Source: Beroe ovata (taxonomy: Eukaryota > Ctenophora > Nuda > Beroida > Beroidae). From it: a stretch of 27,155 nucleotides of DNA. Of this stretch, positions 3,430-17,253 are shown one piece after another. The notes below the pieces were generated by a model. The model searched no databases, had not been told where the DNA came from, and saw nothing but the letters and a program-made list of their open reading frames with translations. Both the position numbers and the translations under genes were made by a program. The stretch covers positions 1 to 27,155 of the forward strand of contig CAMPET010000470.1 of NCBI GenBank assembly GCA_946803715.1. The letters are read 5' to 3'. How positions within the stretch are numbered: the stretch's first letter is position 1; the number at the start of each line of letters is the position of its first letter.

Positions 3430-3679
3430 CACATGTCACACACGTGTAACACACATGTTACACACGTGTAACACACATGTAGCACACATGTAACACACGT
3501 GTAGTACATGTCAAATGCCACATGTAACACGCATGTCAAGTGCCACATGTAACACACATGTCACACACATGTAACACACATGTAGCACACATGTCAAGTG
3601 CCACATGTAACACACATGTAACACACATGTAACACACATGTAACACACATGTAGCACACATGTAACACACATGTAACAC
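3430..3679. repeat. Minisatellite, about 11-bp unit ACACATGTAAC
   Basis: Roughly 22 imperfect copies of an 11-bp unit centred on the self-complementary ACATGT or ACGTGT, with variants at the AAC positions. A longer module containing GTCAAGTGCCACATG recurs at about 3535 and 3593. The array ends about 7 bases from the RNPS1 stop codon, so it would form the start of that gene's 3' untranslated region if transcribed. Confidence 0.9.
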
Positions 3680-7693: not shown

Positions 7694-8728
7694 TCATTCC
7701 ATATTTGCACTTGTCCCATCATCGTCCTCACCTTGAGCTCCACTGGATTTGCTTTGCTCCATCTGATTTTTCATCGTGTATTCCAGATTCCTCGCATTGG
7801 TTTCAGCAGATGATCTTCCAAATGTGAAAGTAGTCTTTGACCAGGAACATATCGATCTCCAGAAAGTCTTTGGGTACAACTGGAACAGAGTTTCCTTGTT
7901 CAAGAGGAACAAACAAGCATTCACAAAACCGAACAACGGAGAAGTGATGGAGTGAGCGACAGATAAACCGAAATTGGGGTGATCTGGATGGGACCAGTTA
8001 TGAATCCTGTTGGCAATGGGGATACTAGCTAGCAAAATGTTGATGAATGGGTAAAACAGGAGAGGCCTAACGCTCCTTTTGAATTGTAGCTTGCTCTGCT
8101 CTTTTTCGGGGCTATAGTTTCCCTCATACGAATTTACCCTCTGCATAACTTTGAATATGATGAAGAAGTAAATGAGTGCTCCCCCAAATACCATCAGCAA
8201 GAGCCACATGTAGTAGCAAATAACTCGCAGAGCATTCTCATAATGAGTTCTCCCCTGAATCCAGCACCAAATACCAGCACTTCCATAGTGGTTTCCAAAG
8301 AGAGGGATGAGAGTGATGAGAAATGATAGTCCCCAAACAACACTGTGATAAATCTTTTCCAGGTGCTTGTATTTAGTTTGCATCAGTAGAACTGTCAAGA
8401 GATGAACATTTATACAGCATATCCAGTTGTTTTGGGCCAATCCCATGAAATTTCTGAAGAATCCTTTAGCAGCACACGGTGGTGAATCATGTCTTGCAAT
8501 AGTATGCAGGCTGAACAGCGCCATGAAGGTACAAGGAACGAGCAAATACATCACTAGACGCTGTGTAATGAACTTGAACTTCTTGTACACTATGATTACA
8601 GTGAACGCAAGTAAACAACCAATCAGTGAAAGTGATGCAGCTGTTGTGCGGCATATTTTCAACACTTGACACCGGTAATCATCATTTTCTGAAGAATTGT
8701 CACTGCATGTAGACAACCAAGTCGTCAT
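7694..8728 (-). CDS. cAMP-receptor-like seven-helix GPCR, copy 1
   Basis: A complete intronless 344-residue frame. A short extracellular N-terminus (with NSS, and Cys 8 and 20) is followed by seven hydrophobic helices at about 28-48, 54-78, 100-117, 128-147, 167-197, 219-241 and 254-276. Cys85 (start of helix 3) and Cys155 in WCWI of loop 2 are the expected disulfide pair. GNHYGSAGIWCWIQG, and FYPFINI with NRI in helix 6, are typical of the Dictyostelium cAR-like superfamily, which also occurs in animals (the WCWI motif is shared with GPR157). The tail is Ser-rich and likely phosphorylated. The ligand cannot be inferred; similarity to cAMP receptors does not show cAMP binding. The start at ATG 8728 leaves the usual short N-terminus. 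It is clearly paralogous to the gene at 12178-13182. Confidence 0.85.
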   Translation of the reverse strand: MTTWLSTCSDNSSENDDYRCQVLKICRTTAASLSLIGCLLAFTVIIVYKKFKFITQRLVMYLLVPCTFMALFSLHTIARHDSPPCAAKGFFRNFMGLAQNNWICCINVHLLTVLLMQTKYKHLEKIYHSVVWGLSFLITLIPLFGNHYGSAGIWCWIQGRTHYENALRVICYYMWLLLMVFGGALIYFFIIFKVMQRVNSYEGNYSPEKEQSKLQFKRSVRPLLFYPFINILLASIPIANRIHNWSHPDHPNFGLSVAHSITSPLFGFVNACLFLLNKETLFQLYPKTFWRSICSWSKTTFTFGRSSAETNARNLEYTMKNQMEQSKSSGAQGEDDDGTSANME

Positions 8729-9813
8729 GACAACTAAAATAACTTCACATGACTGGTCATTCGATCCCTGAGGATGATGAAATGTTAGAAACTAACTCTT
8801 AAAATCGATGGATAGTCAAGAGAATAAGTCATAATATCATCTTAATTCAAAGCTATATAACTCAGGAATGGAGTCAAACAAGGAAATAAATTTTGTGAAA
8901 AAATGAAATAAATATATCGTGACTCGACAAGTTACAATTCAGCTCTGGTTTAAGTGAATGTGAAGTGCAGGACACAATATTTTAGACTTCAACCACTTTG
9001 GAAATGATGCCTACTACTTACGGACTGTTCAACGAGTATGATTTTTTAAATCGACTTGAAAAGCTCATCCTTTGACAGTGTTCAGAGTCATATCAGTCTT
9101 CTACAATAAAGAATGATTTCACATAAATTACAATGATACATTGATTTTATACATAATAAACTATTAATACATTATACAAATACATTTCCATTTTTCAGGT
9201 GTTTGTTACAGTGCGGCATCATACGTGGGCATGCTGATGCTGGTTATTGGTTCACGAGGACAACCAATGAAGTCGAGTGGCGAAAGCTTGGTTTCTATGA
9301 TATATAAAAGTGAAAAATAAATACTTAACATGCCTCAAGAATGGTGTGACTTTTTGTCACTTTGATGATCAATAATTTAAAACCAAGCATAGTTAATCGA
9401 TATCTGCATCGAATAGATGTTCTGATCACCAAATCACGATGATAAATCTAAACACAGTAGGTATTGAGGTAAGAAAATGTGCCATGATGATGGATATACC
9501 TACATGACTCAACAGATTGATCCTTCCAATAATAAAAACTGTTTTTGTAATCCGGAATGATCAATGCTATTGAAAATTAAGCATTCATGAGGATCTATTC
9601 CTTTATTAAATTACTTACAAAACCTTCTTCAAAAAGTAAGTGAAGTCTGTGGCTGAATGATGAAAGCTGAACTATGTTCATTCAGTTATGAAACCTCATC
9701 GATAGGTTCATCAGTTGATGATAGCAGGCGACTCACAAGCCACATGTGTATTACAATAGGAATGATGCAGGGGACTTTAAGAATAAAGTTTCTGCCACAT
9801 CCAATAATCCCCA
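8729..9813. other. Intergenic, APP-like 3' side and receptor 1 5' side
   Basis: About 1.1 kb, AT-rich, with no convincing exons on either strand. A minus-strand AATAAA (plus TTTATT, 9602-9607) lies about 207 bases downstream of the APP-like stop and could be its polyadenylation signal. Confidence 0.6.
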
Positions 9814-11370
9814 CTAGTCCTGGTCGTCAAGATATTTCTGGGGCAATCGACAAGTTGGGTTAGCATAACCATTCTTCTGTAGGAATGTGACATATTGTTC
9901 ATTCGTGAGAATATCTGCAGCAGGGAGGGCAGTGAATTGGTCTTTTTGCAGAGTCCTTCTCACCACTAGAATAAAGAATATGAGGGCAACAAGGATGGTG
10001 ATGCATGACACTGCCGATACAATTGCAATCAAGTATTTTTGGTTCTGTAAATTTGTCTTATCAGTTCCGTTATCAACAGGCTCGTCAGTTTCGTTATCTT
10101 CCGGTGGCTTGTAAGGAGGTTTAGTAGTGTGAAGAGGGAAACACTCAATACAGTTCTCAATATCTTCCAGTTTGAGGAGAAGTTCAGTAGCTTGGAGTTT
10201 CAGCTTTTGCATCTGTCTGACAACAAATTTGTAAGCACTGGAAAGGTCGCCTTGATCACCATTCAAATGCCTCTCACAAATGCTTTTGAAAGATTCGTTC
10301 ACATCTTTCAATGTCATGGTCGCAAAGCTGATGCTGTCTCTGTAGAATTGACTCTTCTTGAGGCTTTTGGCAGTATATTGCTCTAAAAGGTCGGTGCAAT
10401 TTATCAGAAGAGCTTCAACTGTATTGGTCAGACAAGAGAAGTGATCAGAATACAGTACAATGACTTGTTGCTTTTTCTCGCTTTCAACTTTTGATATCTT
10501 ACCATAGATGATGCTTTGTCCCTGGTCATTGAGGTTGTTATATATATCCTTCATGATCTCAACAGTCTTCTCGGTGATTTTGTCTTCCTCCATCTCAACT
10601 TCGGTCAAGTTGCACCACTCCGGAGGGAGGTCTATCCCAGACGGGTTAGTGGGAGGGGCAACAGTGAACTGCGGCGGGAATGGGTTCATGATGCCACCGG
10701 GCAGAGTTGCTATGTTTGGCATGGCTGTTTCATCAGATTGAGATTTGTCCTTTGAGCAACACTGAACATCCGCGGAGAGCAGTCCATTTATTTGTGCCTC
10801 TGACGTGTCACTTTCTGCAATCCTACAACTGGTAACGTTCAACAACTTATTCATAGTCAAATTGTATTCTGAACAGAGGTCATTTTCCCACACTATCTTC
10901 ACACTGGTACAAGTTTCATGCCTGATATTGTGGACAGTTTCATTGTAACAAAACGAATCTCTGCTACCAGAGGCAGTTGAAATTGGGGTAGCTGTAAATG
11001 AATCTGTGTACTGATCACTCCTACTCACGCATATCCATGTTATCGCTTCTCTCTCAGAGCACTTCTCTCTATACTTGAAATTACAAAAGCTCAATGTGCG
11101 TAATTGTCCTTGTCGAGCATTCACAATGTCCAAGTCTGGGTACATTATCTGGCAAAAACCTACAATCTGGTCATGAGTTGGGTACTTCACTTTGAAATCC
11201 ACACTACCATCCCGCCATTCCCTCTCCTGGAGATTATAGAACTTGCTGATTTTCTTCTGCTGGAATGCTACCCTTGGTCGATCAAAAGGAATCCGGAAAT
11301 CAAAGGAGACTATTTCCTCAAAGAATAGACTGAATAAAACTAGTTGTATGATCATTTCCAGGAAGTTCAT
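9814..11370 (-). CDS. Amyloid precursor protein (APP)-like type I membrane protein
   Basis: A complete intronless frame of 518 residues. Signal peptide about 1-22. Residues 66-115 resemble the second half of the APP growth-factor-like domain: QIVGFCQIMYPDLDIVN aligns with APP's GILQYCQEVYPELQITN, and Cys 73, 96, 104 and 114 have nearly APP spacing. Six further Cys (141, 154, 166, 182, 204, 205, ending in CC) match the APP copper-binding-domain pattern. Residues about 262-411 are helical like E2. One transmembrane helix lies at about 446-470, followed by RR. The cytoplasmic tail has QFTALPAA and ends QKNGYANPTCRLPQKY, aligning with APP's QQNGYENPTYKFF. Differences: the first domain-1 disulfide pair is absent, there are no His copper ligands, NPTY is NPTC, and the Abeta segment is not recognisable. 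APP proteins act in cell adhesion and trafficking and bind PTB adaptors. A distant homolog is well supported; function is inferred. Confidence 0.78.
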   Translation of the reverse strand: MNFLEMIIQLVLFSLFFEEIVSFDFRIPFDRPRVAFQQKKISKFYNLQEREWRDGSVDFKVKYPTHDQIVGFCQIMYPDLDIVNARQGQLRTLSFCNFKYREKCSEREAITWICVSRSDQYTDSFTATPISTASGSRDSFCYNETVHNIRHETCTSVKIVWENDLCSEYNLTMNKLLNVTSCRIAESDTSEAQINGLLSADVQCCSKDKSQSDETAMPNIATLPGGIMNPFPPQFTVAPPTNPSGIDLPPEWCNLTEVEMEEDKITEKTVEIMKDIYNNLNDQGQSIIYGKISKVESEKKQQVIVLYSDHFSCLTNTVEALLINCTDLLEQYTAKSLKKSQFYRDSISFATMTLKDVNESFKSICERHLNGDQGDLSSAYKFVVRQMQKLKLQATELLLKLEDIENCIECFPLHTTKPPYKPPEDNETDEPVDNGTDKTNLQNQKYLIAIVSAVSCITILVALIFFILVVRRTLQKDQFTALPAADILTNEQYVTFLQKNGYANPTCRLPQKYLDDQD

Positions 11371-11855: not shown

Positions 11856-11930
11856 ATAATACCTTCTGGCGATAATGCCCGAACGCAGTTAGGACGAGCA
11901 CGTATCACGAAAACAGCCAGAAGGTATTAT
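11856..11930. repeat. Inverted repeat, 15-bp perfect arms
   Basis: 11856-11870 and 11916-11930 are exact reverse complements (ATAATACCTTCTGGC / GCCAGAAGGTATTAT) around a 45-base GC-richer core. The motif TAATGCCCG inside the core recurs at about 12101. Confidence 0.85.
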
Positions 11931-12177: not shown

Positions 12178-13182
12178 CTATTCCATTGTCTGTATCGTCT
12201 GATAGCTTGTTGTGGTGTGGAGTGCCGCGTCAGGGACCCCTAGCACGGGACCAGGCCGAATTTCCTCCTGAGGCGTGCTGGAAATCATTGTATTGATTAT
12301 AGTGCACGGATTCAGCTGCTGCATAGTTTCTTTGTTCATGAAGTACATCATCATATTGAAGAAACCCCAAAGCGGATAAACGACAGAGTGGACCAAAAAC
12401 AGCGGGTAAATTGGATGCAATGGATCCAACATGTTTTGAACCCTGTTGATTGTTACAGGTATAGCCAGGATGAGATTCACCAATGGATACAACATAAGTG
12501 GATACATGTATTCCCGATATTTCCTTTTCATCTCGATTAATATAGGGTCATTCTTATTACCCAGTTGATGTAGTTGTTTGCATATTCGAGCTATAACGAG
12601 AGAGAAGCACACTATTTCAACCACAATACACAACCAGGCCCAAAAGTAAAAGCAATAGATTCTCAAATCATAGAGCTCGTAATGGCTTCTTCCCTGTATC
12701 CAACACCAAACCCCAGCTGACCCATAGTGGTTACCAAACAGAGGGATCAGACTCAGCACTAATGAAAACCCCCATATAAAAACATGAAACGCAGCTTCCA
12801 AATACCATGGCCTTGATGATTGAAAAGAGAAAACCAGCAAGTGAATCACTATACACAAGATTATGAAGCGCTGGGACAGTATTGCCCAGTTGAATAGAAA
12901 CCCACTCACTGCACATGACATTCTGTCATTGCTAATGATTGGATCAAGAGCCACACCTGCCACCACTAGAGTTGGGATCACCAAGTATAACACAAGTCGC
13001 TGAGTAAACCTGGTGTACTTCCTGTAGAGCAGTATTATGAACAAAACCAGTAAACAACCTATTATTGAAAGTGATGCTGCAACTGCTCTAGCATAGTAAA
13101 TTGTCCTACAACGATTATCATTGGAGTATGCACTGTAGCTGTAGTTAGAGCAGTTTTGAAGCCATGTGCTGCTTTCATTCAT
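12178..13182 (-). CDS. cAMP-receptor-like seven-helix GPCR, copy 2
   Basis: An intronless 334-residue frame with the same layout as the receptor at 7694-8728: a short N-terminus with NES, NCS and NYS sequons, seven helices, Cys90 and the loop-2 Cys160 in GNHYGSAGVWCWIQG, and LYPLVNLILAIP with NRV in helix 6, then MNKETMQQL after helix 7. A GRSHYE segment after WCWIQG corresponds to GRTHYE in copy 1, so the two are paralogs and not just family members. The tails differ entirely. ATG 13182 is chosen because the bases before it read TTTTTCTCAGG, a likely acceptor of a 5' UTR intron, and the in-frame extension to 13197 starts with TTG. Membrane receptor, presumably G-protein coupled; ligand unknown. 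Confidence 0.85.
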   Translation of the reverse strand: MNESSTWLQNCSNYSYSAYSNDNRCRTIYYARAVAASLSIIGCLLVLFIILLYRKYTRFTQRLVLYLVIPTLVVAGVALDPIISNDRMSCAVSGFLFNWAILSQRFIILCIVIHLLVFSFQSSRPWYLEAAFHVFIWGFSLVLSLIPLFGNHYGSAGVWCWIQGRSHYELYDLRIYCFYFWAWLCIVVEIVCFSLVIARICKQLHQLGNKNDPILIEMKRKYREYMYPLMLYPLVNLILAIPVTINRVQNMLDPLHPIYPLFLVHSVVYPLWGFFNMMMYFMNKETMQQLNPCTIINTMISSTPQEEIRPGPVLGVPDAALHTTTSYQTIQTME

Positions 13183-16026: not shown

Positions 16027-17253
16027 ATGCTAAGACGAGAGTTACGCATTTTAGTCGGTAGTGCGAGCAGAGCTGCACTCAGAGCATGCAATGAAATTCC
16101 TCAGCCTCGTCTCTTAGCAACACAGAACTCACGTGATAGAAACAGGGGATACAACCAGGGTGGCCCCAAACTAGCGTTTTTAGCGGCCGGAGTGGCAGCT
16201 TTCAGCGGTATTGCTCTAGCCAATGATGGTTCGGATGAGGAAATCCCATTCAATTTGGCTGACATTCGCTACAGCAGTAGCAAATTGTTCAAACACTTCT
16301 ACTCATTTGCTTCGTACAAATACGACAACGAGTTGTTTATGTCGGGCGAGGATTTTCTCCGAGCGGTCCTCGACAAACAGCACCACGACTCATCCCCCGA
16401 GAGAAACGGCACAATCGTGGAGCTATCTGAAGTGGAGCATGTCATGATGCTGGAGGAAACTCCGATGCGGATAAAGAAAGCTGCAATATTCTCATCACTG
16501 GGAAGTCAAGCACTGATCAGTTTCCCAGAGTATTTGTTCCTGGTGTCAATTCTCAGCCAGCCAAAGAACCACCTTATCAAGATATTCCACATGATCGATG
16601 CAGATGGGAACCGGGTTTTGGATAAGGAGGAGTTTGAGTTGCTGGGAATGTTTTTCGGGGGAGTGAAGTTTGAATCACCGCACAACACTTCCCTCAAGTA
16701 TCACTTCTTCAAGGAAGATGGGTCGGGGATACTCAGCTCGAAGGCGTTTGTGCAGTTTATCGACAGCATTCAAACAGAGTGTCTCAAGGTTGAGTTCAAT
16801 GAGTATGCTAAAGGAAAGCGCAAGCTGACTGACACCGCCTTCACCCAACTTCTCTTGGATAGAACTTCACTGGGGGACAGTGATAAGAATGTCTACATTA
16901 AGAGAGTGGAACAGAGGAGCTATGGGGAGGAAAACATATCAAAAGTGGGGGTCACATTCGCACAGTACAAACAGTTCATGGACCTTCTCAACAACATACA
17001 CGACCTGGAAATGACACTTAGATTATTCCATCTTGCCAAGAAACCCGTCACTCCAGAGGAATTTGCACGTGCTGTCAAAGTGAGTACTGGCATTCCACTA
17101 ACATCAAGGATGATTGAACTGACATTCAAAATATTCGATGATGACGGTGATGGAGCTCTGAGTCATGAAGAGTTTGTGAAGATTATGAAGGAGCGGTTGC
17201 AAAGTCGAGGTATACTGGATAAAGAAATGGCTGATGTCGTAAATGGACAGTAA
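16027..17253 (+). CDS. MICU2/MICU3-like mitochondrial calcium uptake EF-hand protein
   Basis: An intronless 408-residue protein. The N-terminus (MLRRELRILVGSASRAALRA) is Arg-rich without acids, as in a mitochondrial presequence, and a hydrophobic segment follows at about 48-66. The core matches the MICU family: EF-hand 1 at 191-202 (DADGNRVLDKEE), a degenerate middle EF-like segment (FFKEDGSGILSSKAF), a helical linker (LEMTLRLFHLAKKPVTPEEF, then ARAVKVSTG) and EF-hand 2 at 371-382 (DDDGDGALSHEE). Both canonical loops keep the Asp/Glu calcium ligands. MICU proteins sit in the intermembrane space and gate the mitochondrial calcium uniporter. The phrase FAxAVKVxTG and the middle segment resemble MICU2/3 more than MICU1, but I cannot resolve the paralog. 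It is the only confident gene on the plus strand. Confidence 0.9.
   Translation: MLRRELRILVGSASRAALRACNEIPQPRLLATQNSRDRNRGYNQGGPKLAFLAAGVAAFSGIALANDGSDEEIPFNLADIRYSSSKLFKHFYSFASYKYDNELFMSGEDFLRAVLDKQHHDSSPERNGTIVELSEVEHVMMLEETPMRIKKAAIFSSLGSQALISFPEYLFLVSILSQPKNHLIKIFHMIDADGNRVLDKEEFELLGMFFGGVKFESPHNTSLKYHFFKEDGSGILSSKAFVQFIDSIQTECLKVEFNEYAKGKRKLTDTAFTQLLLDRTSLGDSDKNVYIKRVEQRSYGEENISKVGVTFAQYKQFMDLLNNIHDLEMTLRLFHLAKKPVTPEEFARAVKVSTGIPLTSRMIELTFKIFDDDGDGALSHEEFVKIMKERLQSRGILDKEMADVVNGQ

Follow-up and report, generated by a model that had tools for sequence, protein, structure and literature searches.

A probable, divergent APP-family protein with a helical domain in the E2 position, likely from a ctenophore

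The gene at the centre of this report lies in the window, by which we mean the whole 27,155-nucleotide stretch of DNA analysed, and is a real, conserved and divergent gene of the APP family. Compared at the sequence level, its head domain and its tail are separately APP-like. We consider it likely that the protein is a divergent APP-family member, probably from a comb jelly (ctenophore), that carries a helical domain in the position of E2. The features of the gene are listed below, with the evidence for each in brackets.

9814–11370, minus strand: single-exon gene encoding a 518-residue APP-like type I membrane protein (open reading frame, 11 full-length homologues, single APP_N match)
11305–11370, minus strand: predicted signal peptide, approximately residues 1–22 (hydrophobic N-terminus, AlphaFold helix 3–21)
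11017–11280, minus strand: growth-factor-like domain (GFLD) of E1, residues 31–118, with Cys 73, 96, 104, and 114 (Pfam, PDB profile, hhalign, Foldseek)
10750–10965, minus strand: copper-binding-domain position, residues 136–207, with Cys 141, 154, 166, 182, 204, and 205 (order of the cysteines and CC end)
10159–10617, minus strand: four-helix domain in the E2 position, residues 252–404 (AlphaFold model)
9961–10035, minus strand: transmembrane helix, residues 446–470 (hydropathy maximum at about 447–470, AlphaFold helix 441–476)
9817–9960, minus strand: cytosolic APP-like tail, residues 471–518 (hhalign and family conservation)
9853–9873, minus strand: predicted adaptor-binding motif NGYANPT, residues 500–506 (NGYANPT in 11 of the 12 family members, NGYSNPT in P0003)
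9602–9607, minus strand: possible poly(A) signal AATAAA, 206 nt 3' of the stop codon

Results

Conservation and family assignment

The protein is encoded by one continuous frame of 518 codons, with an in-frame stop 12 nt 5' of the ATG, and when the window was shuffled 100 times by mononucleotide, no stop-free run exceeded 199 codons. A search of 5.8 billion proteins returned 11 full-length homologues with 38–71% identity over 96–100% of the query, which indicates a conserved gene, and a repeat search with the family alignment recovered the same 11 and no others. All 12 members of the resulting family match both APP_N and APP_amyloid at E values up to 1, in a comparison in which 25 of 26 Pfam families were listed. 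When the profile of the 12 sequences was compared with the PDB, 10 distinct E1 chains of APP or APLP2 were found (E 1.2e-6 to 1.1e-4), together with four APP C-terminal chains at E 0.25–0.79, none of them significant by itself. Six unrelated chains also appear up to E 10, and the best of them, a tape-measure protein matched over residues 255–383 (E 9.4e-4), was rejected as coiled-coil noise. With phmmer against the PDB, the single sequence reaches human APP at E 9.1e-4 only.

The mean pairwise identity within the family is highest in the tail (0.83) and the transmembrane segment (0.82, residues 443–470), followed by the GFLD (0.58), the copper-binding position (0.51), the helical domain (0.45), the signal peptide (0.42), and the linker (0.32), suggesting that the membrane and cytosolic end is the most strongly guarded by selection. 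Conservation is lowest in the juxtamembrane stretch (0.31), and we make no claim of a beta-amyloid sequence.

The initial annotation described the gene as intronless, and this is borne out by the single-exon frame, yet the trait is common here, several other genes of the window apparently sharing it, whereas the presenilin gene of this genome is divided into exons. The lack of introns would also fit a processed retrocopy, or a pseudogene, derived from an APP gene with introns, which we regard as very improbable, given that APP_N matched a single locus in a profile search of the 77.8-Mb assembly (534 contigs), that the frame is kept in eleven full-length homologues whose tails have a mean identity of 83%, and that other genes in the window are apparently single-exon too.

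The E1 head

From its sequence, the N-terminal half of the ectodomain is a growth-factor-like E1 head, minus two of the cysteines of APP. Pfam APP_N covers residues 32–114 with 28.9 bits, against a curated cut-off of 22.1. The blocks of the family alignment were further compared with human APP by hhalign, with 40 shuffled versions of the human segment as controls for each block, the cysteines being kept in place for E1, for the GFLD, and for one of the runs on the copper-binding domain. The GFLD scores 54.5 bits (P 96.5) and the whole of E1 56.2 bits (P 95.5), and none of the 40 shuffles does as well in either case. In Foldseek, ranks 1–17 are all E1 or GFLD entries of APP or APLP2, including contactin complexes and fusions, with rmsd values of 4.5–5.2 A for GFLD-only alignments and 13.2–15.5 A for alignments to whole E1. 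The AlphaFold pLDDT is 51–70 in the GFLD and 29–55 in the copper-binding block.

An APP likeness reaching no further than the C-terminal NPT motif, which the initial annotation had set against its own reading, is thus not what we observe, the GFLD being recognized by Pfam, by the PDB profile, by hhalign, and by Foldseek. The same annotation read the GFLD from Cys 73, 96, 104, and 114, which we find at these positions, and proposed a signal peptide in front of it, which agrees with the hydrophobic N-terminus and the predicted helix.

Human APP has six cysteines in this domain (38, 62, 73, 98, 105, and 117), four of which are kept in the family with spacings of x22-24, x7, and x9, compared to x24, x6, and x11 in the human protein. 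The cysteines equivalent to C38 and C62 are missing in all 12 members. These two residues presumably form one disulphide in APP, and the loss of exactly one pair is compatible with a preserved GFLD fold.

The second block of E1 was annotated as six cysteines ending in CC, similar to the copper-binding domain. The pattern itself stands, since six ordered cysteines with a CC end occupy this position in 12 of the 12 family members, with spacings of x12, x9-11, x14-15, x18-24, and CC, compared to x10, x13, x15, x11, and CC in human APP. Taken alone, however, the block scores 11.5 bits in hhalign, where 10 of 40 shuffles do as well (7 of 40 when the cysteines were shuffled too), and Pfam APP_Cu_bd is not listed for the protein at E values up to 1. 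The block is thus supported by the order of its cysteines and by the E1 alignments that enter it, the hhalign alignment extending from the GFLD to residue 191, but not on its own.

The domain in the E2 position

A helical stretch had also been annotated in the E2 position. It is there, AlphaFold modelling residues 246–412 with a pLDDT of 90.6 and a pTM of 0.84, but none of the tools used tied these helices to E2. In hhalign, the comparison with human E2 gives 12.1 bits and P 0.14–0.15, with 16 of 40 shuffles as good, which provides no sequence link, and Pfam APP_E2 is not listed for the protein at E values up to 1. When the helical model was used as a query, the best 50 matches of Foldseek and of VIA-align were generic bundles, without APP E2 among them, which does not in itself exclude E2; the VIA-align matches to the full-length model are confined to helices 247–413. 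In this middle domain, Cys 253, 313, 365, 407, and 410 are invariant in all 12 family members. As modelled, the domain may be an E2 that has diverged very far, or one of other origin that stands in its place.

The membrane helix and the cytosolic tail

The strongest hydrophobic stretch of the protein, at about residues 447–470, agrees with the one transmembrane helix of the annotation and suggests a type I topology. The annotated APP-like tail is recovered as well: aligned with the human cytosolic tail by hhalign, it scores 30.6 bits (P 90) and none of 40 shuffles is as good, and NGYANPT occupies residues 500–506. Pfam APP_amyloid covers residues 489–506 only, with 17.6 bits, below its cut-off of 27, so that of the four Pfam profiles that had been proposed as a check, APP_N exceeds its cut-off, while APP_amyloid remains under it and the two others are not listed. 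The residue that follows NPT is Cys rather than Tyr in all 12 members (NPTC vs NPTY).

These observations also bear on a second explanation, in which the protein would be an adhesion or receptor protein outside the APP family that combines a GFLD-like domain with an endocytic tail of the NPxY type and acquired its likeness to APP by convergence or domain capture. The missing last Tyr of NPTY would suit such a protein, as would the fact that the E2 and copper-binding blocks each lack independent sequence support. Nevertheless, two distinct regions, correctly ordered for an APP, each match APP better than any of the 40 shuffles does, the APP-type order of cysteines continues through E1, and APP_N matched just this locus in the genome, which together make a protein outside the family quite improbable.

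Partner genes and a possible mechanism

The same genome contains genes for the proteins that would act on an APP. Presenilin was found as five exon matches on one contig, the last exon ending in ISQVYL. PTB domains gave five matches, of which one is an X11/Mint-like exon (L009, best PDB match 4dbb, E 5.3e-8), another an exon similar to the second PTB domain of FE65 (L011, 3dxc, E 1e-12), and a third, read by eye, belongs to a SAM-SAM-PTB protein (L008). We take the 3dxc structure to contain the APP tail.

A mechanism can be proposed from knowledge of the family, to which the present data contribute directly the domains, their conservation, and the partner genes. At the cell surface, the protein would serve as a receptor or adhesion molecule of type I topology, with the helical domain in the place of E2, and its E1 head might bind an outside partner or heparan sulphate. 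The ectodomain would be shed, and presenilin/gamma-secretase would then cut the transmembrane helix and release the tail, whose NGYANPT turn would be bound by the FE65-like and X11/Mint-like PTB adaptors of the same genome.

Surroundings of the gene

Other apparently single-exon genes in the window encode a UTP13/TBL3-like WD40 protein, an RRM protein, a MICU-type EF-hand protein, and two related GPCRs. The GPCR genes (7694–8728 and 12178–13182, both on the minus strand) lie one on each side of the APP-like gene, share its strand, and are paralogues with 39% identity; the former matches Dicty_CAR above its cut-off, and the latter weakly matches GPR_Gpa2_C. A perfect inverted repeat, whose 15-nt arms enclose a loop of 45 nt, lies upstream of the APP-like gene (11856–11930) and might be a small mobile element or a hairpin. 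A 415-residue frame at 1667–2914 on the minus strand contains a degenerate array of 15-nt repeats (ETVPQ-type), with tandem repeats at 1812–2296, and is overlapped on the opposite strand by a leucine-rich frame of 184 residues (1891–2445). At 3430–3679, an 11-nt minisatellite, CACATGTAACA, is present in 22 copies and encodes the CYMCVTCVLHV-type repeat that ends a 177-residue ORF. Rfam has no match in the window.

Affinity of the host

The annotation discussed the gene under the supposition that its host is a sponge, and the gene content of the assembly speaks against this and leans towards a ctenophore. A first indication comes from the same contig.

16027–17253, plus strand: MICU2/3-type gene (51% identity to Mnemiopsis leidyi)

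Among the 7998 candidates scored, which were those sharing most words with the query and were compared without a sponge sequence, the nearest named relative of this gene is from Mnemiopsis leidyi at 51%, followed by four fish MICU3 proteins at 33–38%, and two unnamed relatives reach 71% identity. Its best PDB match is a MICU3 (E 2.2e-45).

One ionotropic glutamate receptor locus (iGluR L078) gives a similar indication. Among PDB chains, and with no sponge protein compared, its best match is ML032222a, which we take to be a Mnemiopsis protein; this 256-residue domain scores 219 bits compared to 211 for full-length kainate receptors, and in the ligand-binding domain the two sequences are identical at 113 of 247 residues. 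At another locus (iGluR L076), full-length kainate receptors come first with 217 bits, and ML032222a is at rank 12 with 196.5 bits.

Wnt gave nine matches on four contigs, which may represent a set of four genes, and one Wnt exon scores 73–89 bits against Wnt7a, 5a, 3a, and 8 alike. One of these matches, L016 (C64:262688–262834), consists of one partial exon next to a long stretch of N, which leaves this locus incomplete. Four Wnt ligands are given for Mnemiopsis and for Beroe, and three for Hormiphora (PMC11184263). A glass sponge host, suggested by the fit to single-exon-rich genomes of 60–80 Mb, was rejected on account of the Wnt matches, as the glass sponge O. minuta is reported to lack Wnt and dishevelled (PMC10280926).

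The homeodomain gave 87 matches in the genome, counted as exons, and no Hox was recognized by eye among the 25 homeodomains read from the best 30 of these 87 loci. The published number of homeoboxes is 76 for Mnemiopsis, and 32 is the number used for the sponge Amphimedon, from which Hox genes are reported to be absent too (PMC2959044). L028 and L029 are homeodomain genes that resemble each other but lie on separate contigs; each consists of one open frame and falls in no class evident by eye, and intronless unclassified homeodomains are reported from Mnemiopsis (PMC2959044).

Neither zf-C4 nor the nuclear-receptor ligand-binding domain has a match in the genome, both searches being without a positive control, and ctenophores are reported to be without the nuclear-receptor zinc finger (PMC3038971). 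COX1 has no match in the assembly, which is not decisive, as the assembly may lack the mitochondrion, or the mitochondrial sequence may have diverged too far. The GC content of 34–48% per kb is compatible with the 37.5–43.1% of ctenophore genomes but also with that of many animals, and a published compact Beroe assembly measures 91.6 Mb. Silicatein, tried as a sponge marker, was not informative, since the catalytic residue is Cys in the 15 motifs read from 20 fetched loci. The papain-type (C1) peptidases form a very large set (150 matches among 163 candidates, exon fragments included), and many of them are frames of about 330–600 codons that are apparently single-exon (e.g., L056–L075).

A sponge other than a glass sponge, carrying this same APP-family gene, nevertheless has some points in its favour. 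Sponges with compact, single-exon-rich genomes are known (PMC10282587), the lack of Hox is shared with Amphimedon, and 10 of the 11 homologues of the APP-like protein lie on contigs shorter than 5 kb in the JGI, Logan, and ENA collections, with unnamed hosts. Against it stand the number of homeodomain matches, which even as an exon-level count is far above the 32 of Amphimedon, and the proximity of the MICU gene and of iGluR L078 to Mnemiopsis within the comparisons described above. Such a host is therefore improbable, and the host is probably a ctenophore, judging from these genes.

None of the 11 homologues is an entry with a named source, though the collection includes Mnemiopsis proteins (e.g., P0014). 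Mnemiopsis may be without the gene, or its model there may be absent or have the wrong length; alternatively, the host may not be a ctenophore.

Discussion

The protein resembles APP, APLP1, APLP2, APPL, and APL-1 in its GFLD head, its six-Cys block ending in CC, its helical middle, its single transmembrane helix, and its short NGYxNPT tail, and its genome resembles theirs in encoding presenilin, FE65-like, and X11-like partners. It differs from these proteins by the lack of cysteines at the human C38 and C62 positions and of a detectable E2 sequence, by NPTC in the place of NPTY, and by the cysteines of the middle domain that are invariant in 12 of 12 members. Among other non-bilaterian animals, the placozoan APP homologues are likewise divergent, but they are reported to be without the canonical YENPTY, whereas the present protein retains GYxNPT (PMC11405698).

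The cnidarian APP-like genes of Hydra and Nematostella were the basis on which Tharp and Sarkar dated the origin of the ancestral gene or family in 2013 (PMC3660159). A 2024 survey reports APP in all of the species it examined except ctenophores, which appear to be without APP, and excludes sponges from its Mint analysis (PMC11405698). The queries of its BLAST searches came from human, worm, and fly, the threshold was E<1e-6, and in-house transcriptomes of Mnemiopsis and Hormiphora were included (PMC11405698). Given that the present protein reaches human APP by phmmer at an E value of only 9.1e-4, a BLAST search at that threshold would probably miss the gene. In the parts of the literature consulted, we found no report of a ctenophore or sponge APP.

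On balance we favour an interpretation in which ctenophores have a true APP along with presenilin, FE65, and X11, and in which the APP tail-signalling module would then go back to the last ancestor shared by all animals. In the earliest APP, a helical domain, which later became E2 or was replaced by it, would have stood between an E1 head and an NPT tail, and the gene would have been lost in some ctenophores, perhaps including Mnemiopsis. The family profile of 12 sequences can be used to search every ctenophore genome. If this interpretation is true, the set formed by APP, gamma-secretase, FE65, and X11 predates the split of ctenophores from the other animals, and the oldest parts of APP are suggested to be the GFLD and the tail, and perhaps not E2. 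The nervous system of ctenophores has been proposed to have arisen independently (PMC11405698), and APP would then occur together with a nervous system of possibly separate origin.
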